Origin: Psychrobacillus sp. FSL H8-0483
GTDB taxonomy: Bacteria > Bacillota > Bacilli > Bacillales_A > Planococcaceae
NCBI RefSeq assembly: GCF_038637725.1
Contig: NZ_CP152052.1
Location: 1,223,501 to 1,287,500, forward strand
Direction: 5' to 3'
Length of the DNA: 64,000 bases
Shown here: positions 7,786 to 50,697 of the stretch, in pieces
How the letters are laid out: every line of letters starts with the position of its first letter
How positions within the stretch are numbered: position 1 is the stretch's first letter
The notes under the pieces: model-generated
What the model was told of the DNA's origin: nothing
What the model saw: the letters and a program-made list of their open reading frames with translations, nothing else
Database searches by the model: none
Made by a program: the position numbers and the translations under genes

Positions 7786-8217
7786 ATGTTCATGGGCGAA
7801 TATCAACATAACGTTGATGCGAAAGGTCGGTTAATTATACCTTCCAAATTTCGTGAGCATTTAGAAGATTACTTTGTTTTAACACGTGGTCTTGATAATT
7901 GCTTATTTGGTTATCCTATGAATGAATGGCGAAAGCTCGAAGAAAAATTAAAAGAACTTCCTGTCACCAAAAAAGATGCACGTGCTTTTACTCGTTTTTT
8001 CTTCTCGGGTGCTACTGAAGTTGAAATTGATAAACAAGGCCGTATTAACATTCCGAATAATCTTCGTTCCTATGCAAAAATGGACAAAGAGTGTATAATC
8101 CTTGGCGTTTCAAATCGTCTTGAAATTTGGGCGAAGGAAGCTTGGGAAAATTACTTTGAAGAATCTGAGGATTCCTTCAACGATATTGCGGAAAATATGA
8201 TCGGTTTTGATATATAA
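7786..8217 (+). CDS. mraZ: Division/cell wall cluster repressor MraZ
   Basis: 143 aa, two SpoVT-AbrB-like halves: [24 protein letters not shown] and [24 protein letters not shown], each with the signature DxKGR/DKQGRxxxP. MraZ forms ring-shaped oligomers and represses its own operon. ATG at 7786 is chosen because the family starts MFMGEYxH and GTGGGGTGA ends six bases before it; the GTG at 7777 falls within this ribosome site. First gene of the dcw cluster, preceded by the GTGG repeats it presumably binds. Confidence 0.95.
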
Positions 8218-8235
8218 GAATTGGAGGGAAAGAGC

Positions 8236-9186
8236 TTGTTTCATCACACAACCGTATTACTTAAAGAAACAGTAGATGGACTAGCTATTCGTCCAGATGG
8301 TATTTATGTAGACTGTACCCTTGGCGGAGCGGGACATAGTGAATATTTAGTTAAACAATTAAACGAACAGGGCAGGTTAATCTGTTTTGATCAAGACATG
8401 ACTGCTATCGAGAATGCAAAGATTAAACTTGCAGCCTATTTAGATCAAGTAACATTTGTACATGCTAATTTCCGTTATTTAAAAGAAGAACTATATAAAA
8501 TAGGGATTGAAAAAGTAGACGGTATTTTATATGACTTAGGTGTTTCATCACCTCAACTAGATACTCCAGAACGTGGTTTTAGTTACAACTACGATGCGCC
8601 ATTAGATATGCGAATGGATCAAACAAGTGAGTTAACAGCTTTCCATGTAGTGAATGAATGGCCGTATGAAAAACTAGTGAAAATCTTTTTCCGTTATGGA
8701 GAAGAGAAATTTTCGAAGCAAGTAGCGCGAAAAATTGAACAAGCAAGAGAAGTCGCTCCGATCGAAACAACATTTCAATTAGTAGAGTTAATAAAAGCAG
8801 GAATACCTGCAGCTGCAAGGAGAACTGGTGGACATCCAGCTAAAAGAATTTTCCAAGCAATCCGAATAGCTGTTAATGATGAACTAGGAGCAGCAGAGGA
8901 TTCCTTAGAAGATGCAATTCGAATGATTAAAGTGGGTGGAAGAGTAAGTGTTATTACATTCCATTCTCTAGAAGATAGATTAACTAAAACAATTTTCAAA
9001 GAAGCATCATCGGTACCTAACTTGCCGCCTAACTTGCCAGTAATTCCAGCAGGTCTGGAGCCAATGTTAAAACTAGTAACAAGAAAGCCGATTTTGCCAT
9101 CGGAAGAAGAATTAGAAGTAAATAATCGTTCTCGTTCTGCTAAGCTGCGAATTGTGGAAAAACTAATTGAAAAGGGAAGTGTTTAA
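8236..9186 (+). CDS. rsmH: 16S rRNA (cytosine-1402 N4) methyltransferase RsmH
   Basis: 316 aa. Starts at a TTG (8236; [15 protein letters not shown]), seven bases after GGAGGG; the upstream TTG at 8221 lies in the ribosome site. SAM-binding loop [14 protein letters not shown], then [14 protein letters not shown] and the helical insert typical of Rsm[15 protein letters not shown], and [10 protein letters not shown]. It methylates C1402 of 16S rRNA. It is immediately followed by ftsL (TAA then ATG). Confidence 0.95.
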
Positions 9187-9555
9187 ATGGCTTTACGTAA
9201 TCATCAGTCAAAAACTTACATAACTCAGCCTTCTTCTCCTAAACAACCACAATTGAAGAAGCAAGCAAAACAACAGAGGTATCTAATTACAAAAGGTGAA
9301 CGAGTTCTGTTTCTTATGTTATTAACTGTCGTAACTATACTTGGTATAATGATTATTCAAACTCAAGCGACTGTTCGTGCAACATCTGCGGACATTTCAC
9401 TACTTGAACAACAAATAGACACGACTTCAAAAGAAAATACAGACTTGTCCATTCAAGTAAGTGAATTATCTACCTATAAGCGTATTTGGAAAAAGGCGGA
9501 AGAGCTCGGTTTGAAACTGAATGAGCAAAACGTAAAGGTAGTACCAGGACAATGA
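9187..9555 (+). CDS. ftsL: Cell division protein FtsL
   Basis: 122 aa bitopic protein: about 40 basic cytoplasmic residues, one membrane helix (RVLFLMLLTVVTILGIMII, about residues 39-57), then an extracytoplasmic coiled coil (ISLLEQQIDTTSKENTDLSIQVSEL). FtsL forms a complex with DivIC and DivIB in the divisome. Sequence is poorly conserved in this family, so the call rests on topology and position between rsmH and pbpB. It overlaps pbpB by ATGA. Confidence 0.9.
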   Translation: MALRNHQSKTYITQPSSPKQPQLKKQAKQQRYLITKGERVLFLMLLTVVTILGIMIIQTQATVRATSADISLLEQQIDTTSKENTDLSIQVSELSTYKRIWKKAEELGLKLNEQNVKVVPGQ

Positions 9556-46643: not shown

Positions 46644-46813
46644 AATGGCTCTTGTTATTTTGCAATTCTCTTTGTACAAAAAGTGCTAGATACCATTCTG
46701 AATATGTACAAAATTACTTGGAAAATGTAAAGCATATCCTAGAAGATATAGTTTCACAGATAAATGTTGCCTTTCATTTGTTTGAGAGTGAAAGGCCTAT
46801 CTATGGGTAAACT

Positions 46814-47091
46814 GAATCAATTTCATAATTCCAATTTACTTAAAAAAACACAAACAATACTAAAGGAAACTAAAGAAAATATATATTTTACACGGAATAA
46901 AGTATAGTTGATTTCCGCTATAGGCGGACGCTTTCCGCGGGGTGAGCGATAAGCCATCATCGCCGCTCACGCGTCGTTTGTGATGTCTTATCTGTCTCAC
47001 TCATCCCACTGGAGTCGCCGCCTGGCGCTACAATCAACAAGCAATAAATGTTCGTATTTTAATGACAAAGTACTATTTATGTAATTAACTC
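46814..47091 (+). repeat. Repeat family R1, complete copy (about 278 bp)
   Basis: Ends GAATCAATTTCATAAT and the complement of GAGTTAATTACATAAA. Inside is the full core TTGATTTCCGCTATAGGCGG ... CCACTGGAGTCGCCGCC ... CAATCAA. Nearly identical to 60547-60825 over the whole length, including the AT-rich shoulders (AACAATACTAAAGGAAACTAAAG and TTTTAATGACAAAGTACTAT blocks). No coding capacity. Confidence 0.85.
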
Positions 47092-47128
47092 AACTAATAG
47101 AGAGTAAAAGTAATTGTTAGATTGATAG

Positions 47129-47174
47129 AGGAAGAACCCGTAGGACACTCTCGGTACGTTCTTCCTATTTTTTT
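47129..47174 (+). terminator. Terminator-like hairpin without an obvious gene
   Basis: AGGAAGAAC / GTTCTTCCT, 20-base loop, then A and seven T, plus-strand orientation. The nearest plus-strand gene (pyrE) already has its own terminator and an R1 element lies between. It may end a small transcript from the repeat or be a relic. The rest of 46644-47280 shows no gene. Confidence 0.45.
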
Positions 47175-47280
47175 ATTCGTGGATAATAGGAGAGGGCTAT
47201 ACTATGGAAGTTCATGCTTGTTTGAATTATGGTAATACGTTATTTTTATCTTGGAAACAATTAGTTTTCATTGCTGTCAG

Positions 47281-47658
47281 TTACTCCATTACTTTAAACC
47301 ATAATTCTGACCTATCTTTGGGGTCACCATTATAATTTATTGTTAATTCTTCACCTGCCAATATATCTTCAATTGCATAAAAGTCGATTGATAAATTATC
47401 TTTATTATTATCAAAATTTACATTAGGAGAGTAGGAATGATTAAATAGGGCTCCATATCCAAGTGCGATGGCTGTATCGTTACGTTTCCCCCAATAAAAG
47501 CAGTAATTAAAAAGTATAGTCTTTTTCAAATACTTCCATTCTTTTTTAGGTGATATTATTACAGGTGACACCTCAATCAGTTCATCCTTTTTAATATCTC
47601 GTGTAGCAAATAACCCTCTACCATACTTACCAGTTTCTTTAATACATATGGGACCCAA
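47281..47658 (-). CDS. SET-domain protein (putative protein-lysine methyltransferase)
   Basis: 125 aa, essentially one SET domain: TGKYGRGLFATRDIKKDELIEVSP near the N terminus, GYGALFNHSYSPNVNF with the conserved NHS, and AGEELTINYNG with the catalytic Tyr. No post-SET cysteines. The family methylates protein lysines with SAM. TTG start at 47658 behind AAAGGAG on the minus strand. It lies 54 bp after the cotH-like gene on the same strand, so probably co-transcribed with it. The Lys/Gly-rich repeat protein two genes upstream is an attractive but untested substrate. Confidence 0.85.
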   Translation of the reverse strand: MGPICIKETGKYGRGLFATRDIKKDELIEVSPVIISPKKEWKYLKKTILFNYCFYWGKRNDTAIALGYGALFNHSYSPNVNFDNNKDNLSIDFYAIEDILAGEELTINYNGDPKDRSELWFKVME

Positions 47659-47712
47659 AGCATAAACTCCTTTCCGCTATTTAAGTAGCCAAGGCTATTA
47701 ACAAGCTATTAT

Positions 47713-48798
47713 TTAGTCAAAATTCCTTAATTGCTCTTTTATATATTCATTGCGATTTCGAATGAATTGAAAGATTAATTCTGGTTCATCATCAAAAATA
47801 TCAATCTTCTTTTTTTTGTAGGGATCGAGAAGAATGTGAGGACGTACTATTTGATGTAGGGAAAATACTTTATCCTCTAAATATTTTACAGTAAATTTGG
47901 TTTCCAGGATTTCTTCCAACATTTCTTTGTAACGCTTTCGGAATTCTGGAATTTGAAAGAGAAGATTTAAAAGGTGATTTCCTTTTTTTCCTTCAATAGG
48001 GACGTAAGTATGCTCCATGATACCACCACTAACTTTTCTTCCCCAAGTTGCATCATAATCCCAAGGAAGCTTTTCGAATAAGCCAGTATCACTATTGCGA
48101 TACAGGGCATAGTTGTGAGTAAACCCATCATTATTCATTGTACAAACTGCGCCAACTAACCAAAGCAAATATTTCTCCATATTAAGAAGTTGGGAGATTT
48201 CATCAAAGAAATTAGATTGAGCGGTAGTATTAATGGTAGTAATCAATTCATGAAGAAAGGTATCGTCGGATGGTTCTCCAGATGCTTGGAAATAGCCGTC
48301 CATTAACGATTCTTTTGGCTTCTCGTATCTCGTAAAAGAAAAGTTTGCATCATTGTTGGTGGCATAATAAATGGGACCAACAGGAAGCCCCCTTTTTTCC
48401 AAAAACAAATCATCTACAGACTCTAATTGTAAATATACACCTTTGAAAGTATCGTTTCGGAAAAAATTTATATGTTGACTATCGGGTGATAGAACACCGA
48501 GATCTTGAAAGAAGTCAAGAGAAAGTTTGTTACGAATAAGTGAGGGGTCTCTATACTCCGCATTGAGATGAATCTTACGAACTCCAAATAACTTTTCAGG
48601 ATCATCAAAATCAATCACATAGGATCTTTTTCGAAACTTTCGTGTATAAGCACCACGATAGGCAATTTGAATATCCTGGATAATGTCTTCTACTTTTAAT
48701 TTGCTTGGAACAGATTCATCACTATTTAAATTCTTTCTTAAATGATTTAGGTCTTCTTCCTCGATCATTAAGAAATAAGATGGAATTTGATATGACAT
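47713..48798 (-). CDS. cotH: CotH-family spore coat protein kinase
   Basis: 361 aa. CotH fold markers: KVEDIIQDIQIAYRGAYTRKFRKRSYVIDFDD (Arg/Lys in the N-lobe), RKIHLNAEYRDPSLIRNKLSLDFF, and the catalytic segment MNNDGFTHNYALYRNSDTGLFEKLPWDYDATWGR (Asp, Asn and DYD metal ligands). In B. subtilis CotH phosphorylates serines of the coat proteins CotB and CotG during coat assembly. ATG follows AAGGTGGTG. The Ser/Thr-rich repeat gene directly upstream on the same strand is the expected kind of substrate. Confidence 0.9.
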   Translation of the reverse strand: MSYQIPSYFLMIEEEDLNHLRKNLNSDESVPSKLKVEDIIQDIQIAYRGAYTRKFRKRSYVIDFDDPEKLFGVRKIHLNAEYRDPSLIRNKLSLDFFQDLGVLSPDSQHINFFRNDTFKGVYLQLESVDDLFLEKRGLPVGPIYYATNNDANFSFTRYEKPKESLMDGYFQASGEPSDDTFLHELITTINTTAQSNFFDEISQLLNMEKYLLWLVGAVCTMNNDGFTHNYALYRNSDTGLFEKLPWDYDATWGRKVSGGIMEHTYVPIEGKKGNHLLNLLFQIPEFRKRYKEMLEEILETKFTVKYLEDKVFSLHQIVRPHILLDPYKKKKIDIFDDEPELIFQFIRNRNEYIKEQLRNFD

Positions 48799-48863
48799 AT
48801 ATTCACCACCTTGATATTATTTTATAGGTTTATATATTTATATATTAGAACTATAGCTGACAA

Positions 48864-48908
48864 CTAACATAGCCTTAGTACATGGCTATTGAACAACGGC
48901 TATGTTAG
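48864..48908. repeat. Inverted repeat upstream of cotH
   Basis: Perfect 11-bp arms CTAACATAGCC (48864-48874) and GGCTATGTTAG (48898-48908) with a 23-base loop, about 65 bp before cotH on the minus strand. No T run fits a standard terminator; it could be an RNA structure in the cotG-cotH transcript or a regulator site. Confidence 0.45.
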
Positions 48909-48960
48909 TAGCCAGTTAAGGGATTAAGTATCAGTATGCAAATAACAAATCTATTAAGCT

Positions 48961-48999
48961 TTAAAAGCCTCCTTTAACCAATCGAGTATTAGTTAAAGG
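48961..48999 (-). terminator. Weak terminator after the Ser-rich repeat gene
   Basis: Read on the minus strand: CCTTTAAC, 13-base loop, GTTAAAGG, then AGGCTTTTAA. The T run is short, so partial readthrough into cotH would be expected. Confidence 0.35.
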
Positions 49000-49052
49000 A
49001 AAGCTCTCGAATTTATCATTTCTTTTACACGCTTGTTTCTAGTAGACTTATT

Positions 49053-49904
49053 TTAGGTAGACGAACTACCAGTAGACGAGCTCCTAGTAGATGTACTTCC
49101 GGTAGACTTTGATCCAGTAGATGAGCTACCAGAAGATGAATTACCTTTTTTACCTTTTTTTCCATTCGAGCTACTAGAAGATGAGCTCTTAGAAGACGAG
49201 CTTCTAGTAGATGTACTTCCGGTAGACGTTGATCCAGTAGACGAGCTTCCAGTAGATGAGCTCCTAGAAGACGAGCTTCTAGAAGATGTACTTCCGGTAG
49301 ACTTTGATCCAGTAGATGAGCTACCAGAAGATGAATTACCTTTTTTACCTTTTTTTCCATTCGAGCTACTAGAAGATGAGCTTCCAGTAGATGAGCTCTT
49401 AGAAGATGAGCTTCTAGTAGATGTATTGCTTGTAGACGAACTACCAGTAGATGTTGATCCAGTAGATGTACTTCCGGTAGACTTTGATCCAGTAGATGAG
49501 CTACCAGAAGATGAATTACCTTTTTTACCTTTTTTTCCATTCGAGCTACTAGAAGATGAGCTTCCAGTAGATGAGCTCTTAGAAGACGAGCTTCTAGTAG
49601 ATTTACTGCTTGTAGACGAACTACCAGTAGATGTTGATCCAGTAGATGTACATCCGGTAGACGTTGATCCAGTAGATGTAGTTCCTGTAGAAGTTGATCC
49701 AGTAGATGTACTTCCAGAAGATGAACTACCTCTTTTACCTTTTTTACCTTTTTTTCCTTTCGACCTACTAGAAGACGAACTTCTAGAAGATGTACTTCCT
49801 GTAGATGAGGTACTAGAAGACGAGCTTCTAGTAGATGTACTGTTTGTAGATGTGCTTCCAGTAGACGAGCTACTAGAGGATGAACTTCCTTCCATTTCTT
49901 TCAT
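49053..49904 (-). CDS. CotG-like Ser/Thr-rich modular protein with Lys-Gly patches
   Basis: 283 aa made almost wholly of Ser, Thr, Gly, Lys and Arg. A short head (MKEMEG) is followed by 5-residue units such as STSTG, SSSTG and RSSSS. Four basic patches interrupt it: KGKKGKKGKRG near residues 49-59 and NGKKGKKGN near 122-130, 182-190 and 247-255. Patches two to four sit in DNA repeats offset by 180 and 195 bp. One Cys, near residue 85. ATG at 49904 is chosen because AAGGAGGTG lies six bases before it; a GTG at 49913 is inside that site. No signal peptide. Modular Ser/Lys-rich proteins beside cotH are CotG/CotB-type coat proteins that CotH phosphorylates; that role is inferred. Confidence 0.75.
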   Translation of the reverse strand: MKEMEGSSSSSSSSTGSTSTNSTSTRSSSSSTSSTGSTSSRSSSSSRSKGKKGKKGKRGSSSSGSTSTGSTSTGTTSTGSTSTGCTSTGSTSTGSSSTSSKSTRSSSSKSSSTGSSSSSSSNGKKGKKGNSSSGSSSTGSKSTGSTSTGSTSTGSSSTSNTSTRSSSSKSSSTGSSSSSSSNGKKGKKGNSSSGSSSTGSKSTGSTSSRSSSSRSSSTGSSSTGSTSTGSTSTRSSSSKSSSSSSSNGKKGKKGNSSSGSSSTGSKSTGSTSTRSSSTGSSST

Positions 49905-49913
49905 AACAGGCAC

Positions 49914-50203
49914 CTCCTTAATAACAGATTTAGGTTTATATTACGCAAAGGATTTATTATGGTGTGGACAATTGCCTTATTAAGCAAGAAACTAAAGCTT
50001 GAATTTTTTATAATAAGTAAAAAGCTCTAATATGGTCTAGATTGAAAGGCAGAAAGTTTAATGGGATAGGTTGCTGAATTTTTAATTCCCTAGACTCTTT
50101 GAAATTATGTAAGGTAATGGGGGGTCTTTCAAGTGTCCACTCTGCAGCGTCCATATTCATCCTCAAGTAATTAATGGAAAAATGCATGTTGAAATAAGAA
50201 GGA
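49914..50203. other. Intergenic stretch upstream of the repeat-protein gene
   Basis: About 290 AT-rich bases between the divergent-facing ends of the Ser-rich gene and the marR terminator. It should hold the minus-strand sporulation promoter. CATAATAAA on the minus strand (around 49955-49963) is loosely like a SigK/SigE -10 but not convincing. No gene seen. Confidence 0.4.
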
Positions 50204-50235
50204 AAAACGGCTACCAGGATATCGGTAGCCGTTTT
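50204..50235 (-). terminator. Terminator of the marR-type gene
   Basis: AAAACGGCTACC / GGTAGCCGTTTT, 8-base loop, followed on the minus strand by a T run; it also works on the plus strand. Confidence 0.85.
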
Positions 50236-50262
50236 GTTTATACATATGCATTTTCAACTGAT

Positions 50263-50697
50263 TCATTGTGCATTAAATAGTTTAGACTGAAGTATATCTA
50301 GAGCGCGATCAATTTCTTGTAAATCTTCTTTTGAAGCATTTTGGATTCGATTTAGAAAACGTAATTCTATGGATGCAAAGGCTTCGTTCATCATGATTTC
50401 TCCTTCTTTGGAAAGACAAACAAATTGTTTTCTTCGATCTTCGGTATCAGTTAATTTTTCAATTAAATTTTTCTCAATTAATTTTTTTAACTCACGACTT
50501 GTATTTGGCATAGATATGTGTTGACAATCACTAATTTCACTAGGAGTAACAGGTTGGCTAACAGTTATATATTCAAGAATTTTATATTGAACAGGTGTGA
50601 TTGAATCTGATTTAGCGCTTTGTGTTAATTCGTGTGTCACCTGATGAACAGAAGTTAAAAATGTAATACATTTGTTAAAAAGAGCATTTTTGTCCAT
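50263..50697 (-). CDS. MarR-family transcriptional regulator
   Basis: 144 aa winged-helix protein: VQYKILEYITVSQPVTPSEISDCQHISMPNTSRELKKLIEKNLIEKLTDTEDRRKQFVCLSKEGE covers the recognition helix and wing (DxRxK). ATG at 50697 follows GAGGTG; an upstream in-frame start at 50760 overlaps the operator region and is unlikely. Divergent from a flavodoxin-fold reductase, with palindromic sites between, so it probably represses both and responds to a quinone, electrophile or similar ligand. Confidence 0.88.
   Translation of the reverse strand: MDKNALFNKCITFLTSVHQVTHELTQSAKSDSITPVQYKILEYITVSQPVTPSEISDCQHISMPNTSRELKKLIEKNLIEKLTDTEDRRKQFVCLSKEGEIMMNEAFASIELRFLNRIQNASKEDLQEIDRALDILQSKLFNAQ

Follow-up and report, generated by a model that had tools for sequence, protein, structure and literature searches.

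Why is a gene encoding a SET-domain protein located directly downstream of a gene encoding a CotH-family kinase, and what connects both of them with a repeat protein carrying Lys patches? This question is raised by three minus-strand genes in a 64,000-nt stretch of DNA from Psychrobacillus sp. FSL H8-0483 (the window, i.e. the whole stretch analyzed), where the order along transcription is the repeat gene, cotH, SET (Table 1). A sequence-only reading of this DNA had located the genes and the 54-bp gap between cotH and SET exactly as found here, and its three gene identities agree with the domain matches and the 283-aa frame listed in the table. It had proposed a coat protein with phosphorylated Ser and methylated Lys, treating the phosphorylation of CotB and CotG by CotH as established; this agrees with the available text of PMC7821199, according to which B. 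subtilis CotH phosphorylates Ser/Lys/Arg repeats of both proteins.

Table 1. Features of the repeat gene-cotH-SET locus (positions in the window)
Feature	Position	Strand	Remarks
CotG-like Ser/Thr-rich repeat protein, 283 aa	49053..49904	-	four Lys patches (GKKGKKG); proposed substrate
CotH-family kinase, 361 aa	47713..48798	-	PF08757 E 1e-76; belongs to the SET-associated CotH clade
Small SET-domain protein, 125 aa, TTG start	47281..47658	-	PF00856 E 1.9e-19; proposed protein-lysine methyltransferase
Inverted repeat, 59 nt, between the repeat gene and cotH	48857..48915	-	four Psychrobacillus loci
Promoter-like block AC-N16-CGTAATATA upstream of the repeat gene	49937..49963	-	motif chosen after inspection

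The window repeat protein is dominated by Ser (51%) and Thr (17%), contains 36 Lys and Arg residues against 2 Asp and Glu, and has its GKKGKKG patches in positions 49-59 (KGKKGKKGKRG), 123-129, 183-189 and 248-254. Among the periods detected in its gene by Tandem Repeats Finder, one is 180 bp (3.4 copies, 86% matches). The protein has no Pfam or NCBIfam matches at E 0.001, and it shows the features of CotG-like modular coat proteins, as this family is defined in the available part of PMC9765600 (tandem repeats, mostly positive charge, a cotH neighbor). The start codon, ATG at 49904, is preceded by AAGGAGG, which ends 8 bases before it. The start site and the Shine-Dalgarno sequence occur at the corresponding positions in three Psychrobacillus relatives, which also share GKKG near the start, and thus a low-complexity artifact is ruled out; other long frames across this DNA are by-products of the repeats.

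The window CotH matches PF08757 over the full length of the domain (positions 1-322 of 322, 259 bits), the nearest structure being B. cereus CotH (5jd9, profile E 8e-118). As in B. subtilis CotH, the putative catalytic Asp pair is retained: D224 (NNDG) and D247 (PWDYD), with a spacing of 23 residues, are invariant in four Psychrobacillus CotH proteins and in four CotH-SET fusions (see below). These residues were equated with D228 and D251 of the B. subtilis protein by motif and spacing rather than by alignment to it; the D228Q and D251A forms of the latter are inactive, as described in the available text of PMC7821199. The window CotH is predicted to act as a kinase on Ser-rich coat repeats. 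The same genome encodes a second CotH, 0.75 Mb away (at about 2.024 Mb, 8127-9218 of locus L003), and two other SET proteins. This second CotH is outside the SET-linked clade, has no adjacent SET gene, and its partner is a divergent Arg-rich CotG-like gene.

The window SET protein matches PF00856 over its full length (1-105 of 105, 70.5 bits), and the NHS motif, G13/G15 and Tyr109 (the C-terminal Tyr motif) are invariant in 20 SET sequences. Its nearest solved structures, both by sequence and by fold, are S. pombe Set7 and PBCV-1 vSET; the predicted model of SET alone has mean pLDDT of 73 (38-62 in the other four models). The LegAS4 identity was rejected, as NCBIfam gives LegAS4 matches only, far below the cut-off. 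We propose that the window SET is a putative protein-lysine methyltransferase. The dN/dS ratios are 0.06-0.13 for CotH and 0.07-0.12 for SET (six pairs each, calculated by our own Nei-Gojobori script, dS exceeding 1 in some). Downstream of the SET gene, at about 46920-47030, there is a GC-rich, partly palindromic segment that by eye resembles a dispersed repeat element.

Kinase-SET units are not restricted to the window. In total, 21 of them (including the one in the window) were found in several genera, namely 17 adjacent pairs and four single-gene fusions, and the gap between cotH and SET varies from a few-base overlap to 241 bp. Among 19 Psychrobacillus genomes, 15 encode CotH, 18 encode SET, and four show the same-strand adjacency. 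Among 200 genomes of the family, CotH is present in 88 and SET in at least 136, and cotH is adjacent to SET in 12, the remaining 76 of the 88 CotH-bearing genomes having no such adjacency. A second search of 200 family genomes, with the alignment of linked SETs as the query, yielded 142 matches in 134 genomes. The 12 SET proteins scoring 228-240 bits are exactly the 12 adjoining cotH, their high score being partly built in, since the query alignment contains them; the other 130 matches score 117-149 bits (148.6 at the top), with none between the two groups. In a comparison of the tables by eye, no CotH match lay within 40 kb of any of these 130 in the 200 genomes.

Scanning named genomes with four linked SETs as queries produced 11 loci, including those from two genomes already seen (L058, L060), four adjacent pairs (two from Sporosarcina, two from Domibacillus), four fusions, and one solitary SET of the linked clade from Cytobacillus (L062), where the only CotH match of the genome is on another contig. 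In 398 genomes sampled at class level, one further unit (G366) was found, together with an intermediate-score SET (G551) having no cotH in the 11 kb covered.

The fusions (L059, L066, L067, L068), found in Peribacillus simplex, Peribacillus sp. Bi96, Bacillus sp. BA3 and Bacillus sp. ISL-34, are each encoded by a single open frame. Measured from the aligned start, it spans 501-506 aa; CotH occupies 45-353, and SET approximately 390-491. In the AlphaFold model of the fusion, the CotH domain is similar to B. cereus CotH (5jd9, 5jda; TM 0.95-0.96 by target length), the linker 364-382 has low confidence, and the SET domain low to moderate confidence. On the CotH tree the fusion arose in a single event, and SET-associated CotH proteins form one clade (SH-aLRT 100). 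Three members of this clade without an adjacent SET of their own make up a separate branch, one of them adjoining a complete unit in G051. The SET-less CotH genes of the linked clade in L084 and L085 are divergent to a large gene, helicase-like by the look of its sequence.

The linked SETs likewise form one clade (SH-aLRT 95), comprised of 17 linked proteins, three of the four fused ones and the solitary L062, apart from 35 other SETs in the tree, where the divergent L026 is on a very long branch and most inner branches are weak. A chance neighborhood is ruled out by the adjacency of all 12 high-scoring SETs in the family, by the fusions and by both trees; a crude estimate from assumed averages gives less than 0.1 adjacency per 200 genomes by chance. 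The sequence-only reading would have been abandoned, by its own terms, if relatives lacked the linkage of SET with cotH; the linkage is conserved, with 21 units and 12 of the 12 clade SETs in the family. SET and cotH are firmly linked as one evolving unit, usually together with a Lys-patch repeat protein.

Each of the 20 units whose upstream DNA is complete has a Ser-/Thr-rich repeat gene upstream of cotH and in the same orientation; the contig of the remaining unit (L071) ends within a Ser/His/Arg-rich frame upstream. No such gene was found in the 12-16 kb covered around the solitary SET (L062) or SET-less CotH of this type (L084, L085). The repeat sequences vary widely among the SET units. 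The GKK[GA] patch, N-terminal or internal, is observed in 17 of 20, and KGKG is present instead in L064, L065 and L125, two of which have short Lys runs. Arg is more frequent than Lys in four SET-linked repeat proteins (L046, L047, L063, L074), and the only five lysines of the L074 protein sit in its terminal patches. The repeat gene, the distinct CotH clade and the distinct small-SET clade constitute a conserved gene unit, with the two enzymes being one polypeptide in four loci. Two individual genes deviate in structure. In the proposed substrate of L125 (3512-4066), unlike the others, a longer domain of ordinary appearance comes after a short KGKG/TTTG segment, and in L059 (P. simplex RUG2-6) an early stop interrupts the repeat gene (at about 570-790), the CotH-SET fusion being intact.

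Most repeat proteins in the vicinity of SET-less CotH are Arg-rich and CotG-like, with genes on the opposite strand. The median K/(K+R) is 0.73 beside SET units and 0.06 beside SET-less CotH (n=20 each), and GKK[GA] occurs in 17/20 and 1/20 repeat proteins, respectively. The difference in K/(K+R) has a Mann-Whitney p of 7e-6, but the rows are not independent, and this p-value overstates independence, since the contrast largely mirrors one split of the CotH tree. The SET-less set was obtained by scanning 32 CotH loci without adjacent SET, of which 12 gave no usable repeat protein; the repeat proteins of L003 and L050 were chosen by the N-terminus, as the filter had missed them or taken another frame. 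In the SET-linked set, L071 was excluded, its repeat gene being cut by the contig end, and some starts were set by hand (in L046-L048 three residues before the probable ATG, in L064 at an internal Met); the compared frames include L059, shortened by a stop, and L065, ending in an unrelated tail.

Moreover, there are Lys-biased repeats without SET, namely those of L079 (K/(K+R) 0.85) and L082 (0.81), and in the SET-less L088 a second repeat protein (17% K, 9% R) that was omitted from the count, where the Arg-rich one was used. Thus Lys-richness does not require SET, and Lys-richness alone was not accepted as proof of SET targeting.

The flanking genes of the units vary: the window unit has no flanking gene in common with L047 or L048, and the two that it has in common with L046 are placed on the opposite side of the unit. 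Adjoining eight units (L047, L061, L063, L069, L071, L072, L073, L074) are genes for three related proteins (Pfam DUF2642/DUF6897), one of them with a KVDRGGPES-type motif. We take these neighbors to resemble the N-terminal domain of CotB, and the label CotB-like is used for them in this presumed sense. Together with the homology to B. cereus CotH (5jd9), the CotB-like neighbors in eight loci suggest a spore-coat role for the window CotH.

Two candidate regulatory elements are found at the locus. The inverted repeat between the repeat gene and cotH is possibly a leader hairpin or an operator; its pattern gives one site per genome in three of four Psychrobacillus genomes, the L046 version being mismatched. 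Among its 19 pairs, two have changed on both sides and still pair, and in five a single sequence is broken or gapped. The block upstream of the repeat gene is, weakly, sigma-K-like at best. A sigma-K promoter by the strict AC/CATAnnnTA score was rejected, the score showing no excess over shuffles (mean 6.2 vs 6.06). The relaxed pattern, chosen after inspection, is present at 6 of 20 SET-linked loci (0.38 expected) and upstream of 1 of 20 SET-less repeat genes (0.40 expected), a mere hint at sporulation timing. The search for RNA families in 46800-50400 gave four matches, each under its gathering score.

We consider it probable that these genes encode a two-enzyme CotH/CotG coat module, in which one coat protein would be phosphorylated on its Ser/Thr repeats by CotH and methylated on its Lys patches by SET. 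Late in sporulation CotH, acting in the mother cell, would place phosphate on Ser (or on Thr in Thr-based repeats) of the disordered repeats, and SET would transfer methyl groups from S-adenosylmethionine onto the GKK-type patch lysines. This would yield a phospho-Ser/methyl-Lys coat protein with patterned charge, able to assemble without aggregation. The methylated lysines would remain positively charged and would be expected to be barred from isopeptide cross-links.

The adjacency and the fusions prove association with CotH, and not with any given lysine, and SET might act on CotH itself or on another coat protein, such as the CotB-like neighbors, the repeat protein being the kinase substrate only. 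CotB-like genes do adjoin eight units, the smallest of them with Lys-rich tails, but they were not found in the flanking DNA covered for the other compared units, including the window's, while a repeat gene accompanies each of the 20 units with intact upstream DNA, and we regard this reading as unlikely. Still less probable is mere co-regulation of late-sporulation genes with an unrelated SET target, e.g. a ribosomal or DNA-binding protein. Related small SET genes are widespread away from cotH (the 130 matches in 200 family genomes), and hence a general role exists for the SET family; the linked SETs, however, are a separate clade, fused with the kinase in four loci and kept while the flanking genes differ. 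Binding of Lys without methyl transfer is conceivable for a SET domain, which could then be a non-catalytic adaptor placing CotH on Lys-rich repeats, but the invariance of NHS, G13/G15 and Tyr109 in 20 sequences and the low dN/dS (0.07-0.12) make this very improbable.

The preferred reading, phosphorylation and methylation of one repeat protein by two enzymes, concerns a SET clade tied to a coat kinase by gene order and fusion, and thus offers a directly testable native partner and substrate for a bacterial SET protein. If it is true, spore-coat chemistry gains lysine methylation, and the fused enzyme suggests that both marks are written jointly on a single disordered protein. The question can be tested in Psychrobacillus and Peribacillus systems by ordinary co-expression and mass spectrometry.

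The locus resembles the B. subtilis CotB/CotG/CotH module in that a CotH-family kinase adjoins a low-complexity, positively charged, Ser-rich modular protein. CotG aggregates when unphosphorylated, a charge-balancing effect being ascribed to its phosphorylation (available text of PMC9765600). The SET gene sets our locus apart, none being mentioned for the B. subtilis module in the available parts of PMC7821199 and PMC9765600. The literature search, covering titles and the opening lines of abstracts, with subscription journals thinly represented, returned no paper linking a SET protein with CotH or the bacterial spore coat, and the term SET domain is absent from the available text of a sporulation-gene survey that treats CotH as a likely kinase (PMC3533761). 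The organization differs as well: the compared SET-less CotH loci have a divergent repeat gene with a mostly Arg-rich product, whereas in SET units it is located upstream on the same strand and usually encodes Lys patches.

Short SET chains like that of the window are also found in S. pombe Set7, which modifies an H3 site, and in PBCV-1 vSET. The former has 169 residues (5h6z), the latter 119 (1n3j, 3kma), and by PDB names both are histone methyltransferases (H3-Lys27 for vSET), whereas the partners here are a coat kinase and a repeat protein. In the available text of PMC3980110, bacterial SET proteins are mainly discussed as host-histone modifiers, and BaSET of Bacillus anthracis is described to methylate eight lysines of histone H1. 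BaSET and the window SET are both bacterial SET proteins, but the former is, by the description available there, a secreted protein that takes no part in sporulation and germination.

Diatom silaffins are Ser/Lys repeat peptides with phosphorylated Ser and with methylated or polyamine-bearing Lys, and these modifications produce zwitterionic self-assembling polymers (available text of PMC4557024 and PMC11818168). Silaffins are eukaryotic secreted silica proteins, and no homology is claimed; they set a chemical precedent for phospho-Ser combined with modified Lys in a single repeat protein, and the analogy lies in the composition of the window protein and in the two kinds of enzymes encoded beside it. 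One of these texts attributes to B. cereus CotB1 a part in the silicification of the coat. By analogy, CotH-SET may tentatively be viewed, with more doubt than confidence, as a bacterial dual writer producing a zwitterionic silaffin-like coat polymer that would self-assemble and possibly mineralize on the spore surface.
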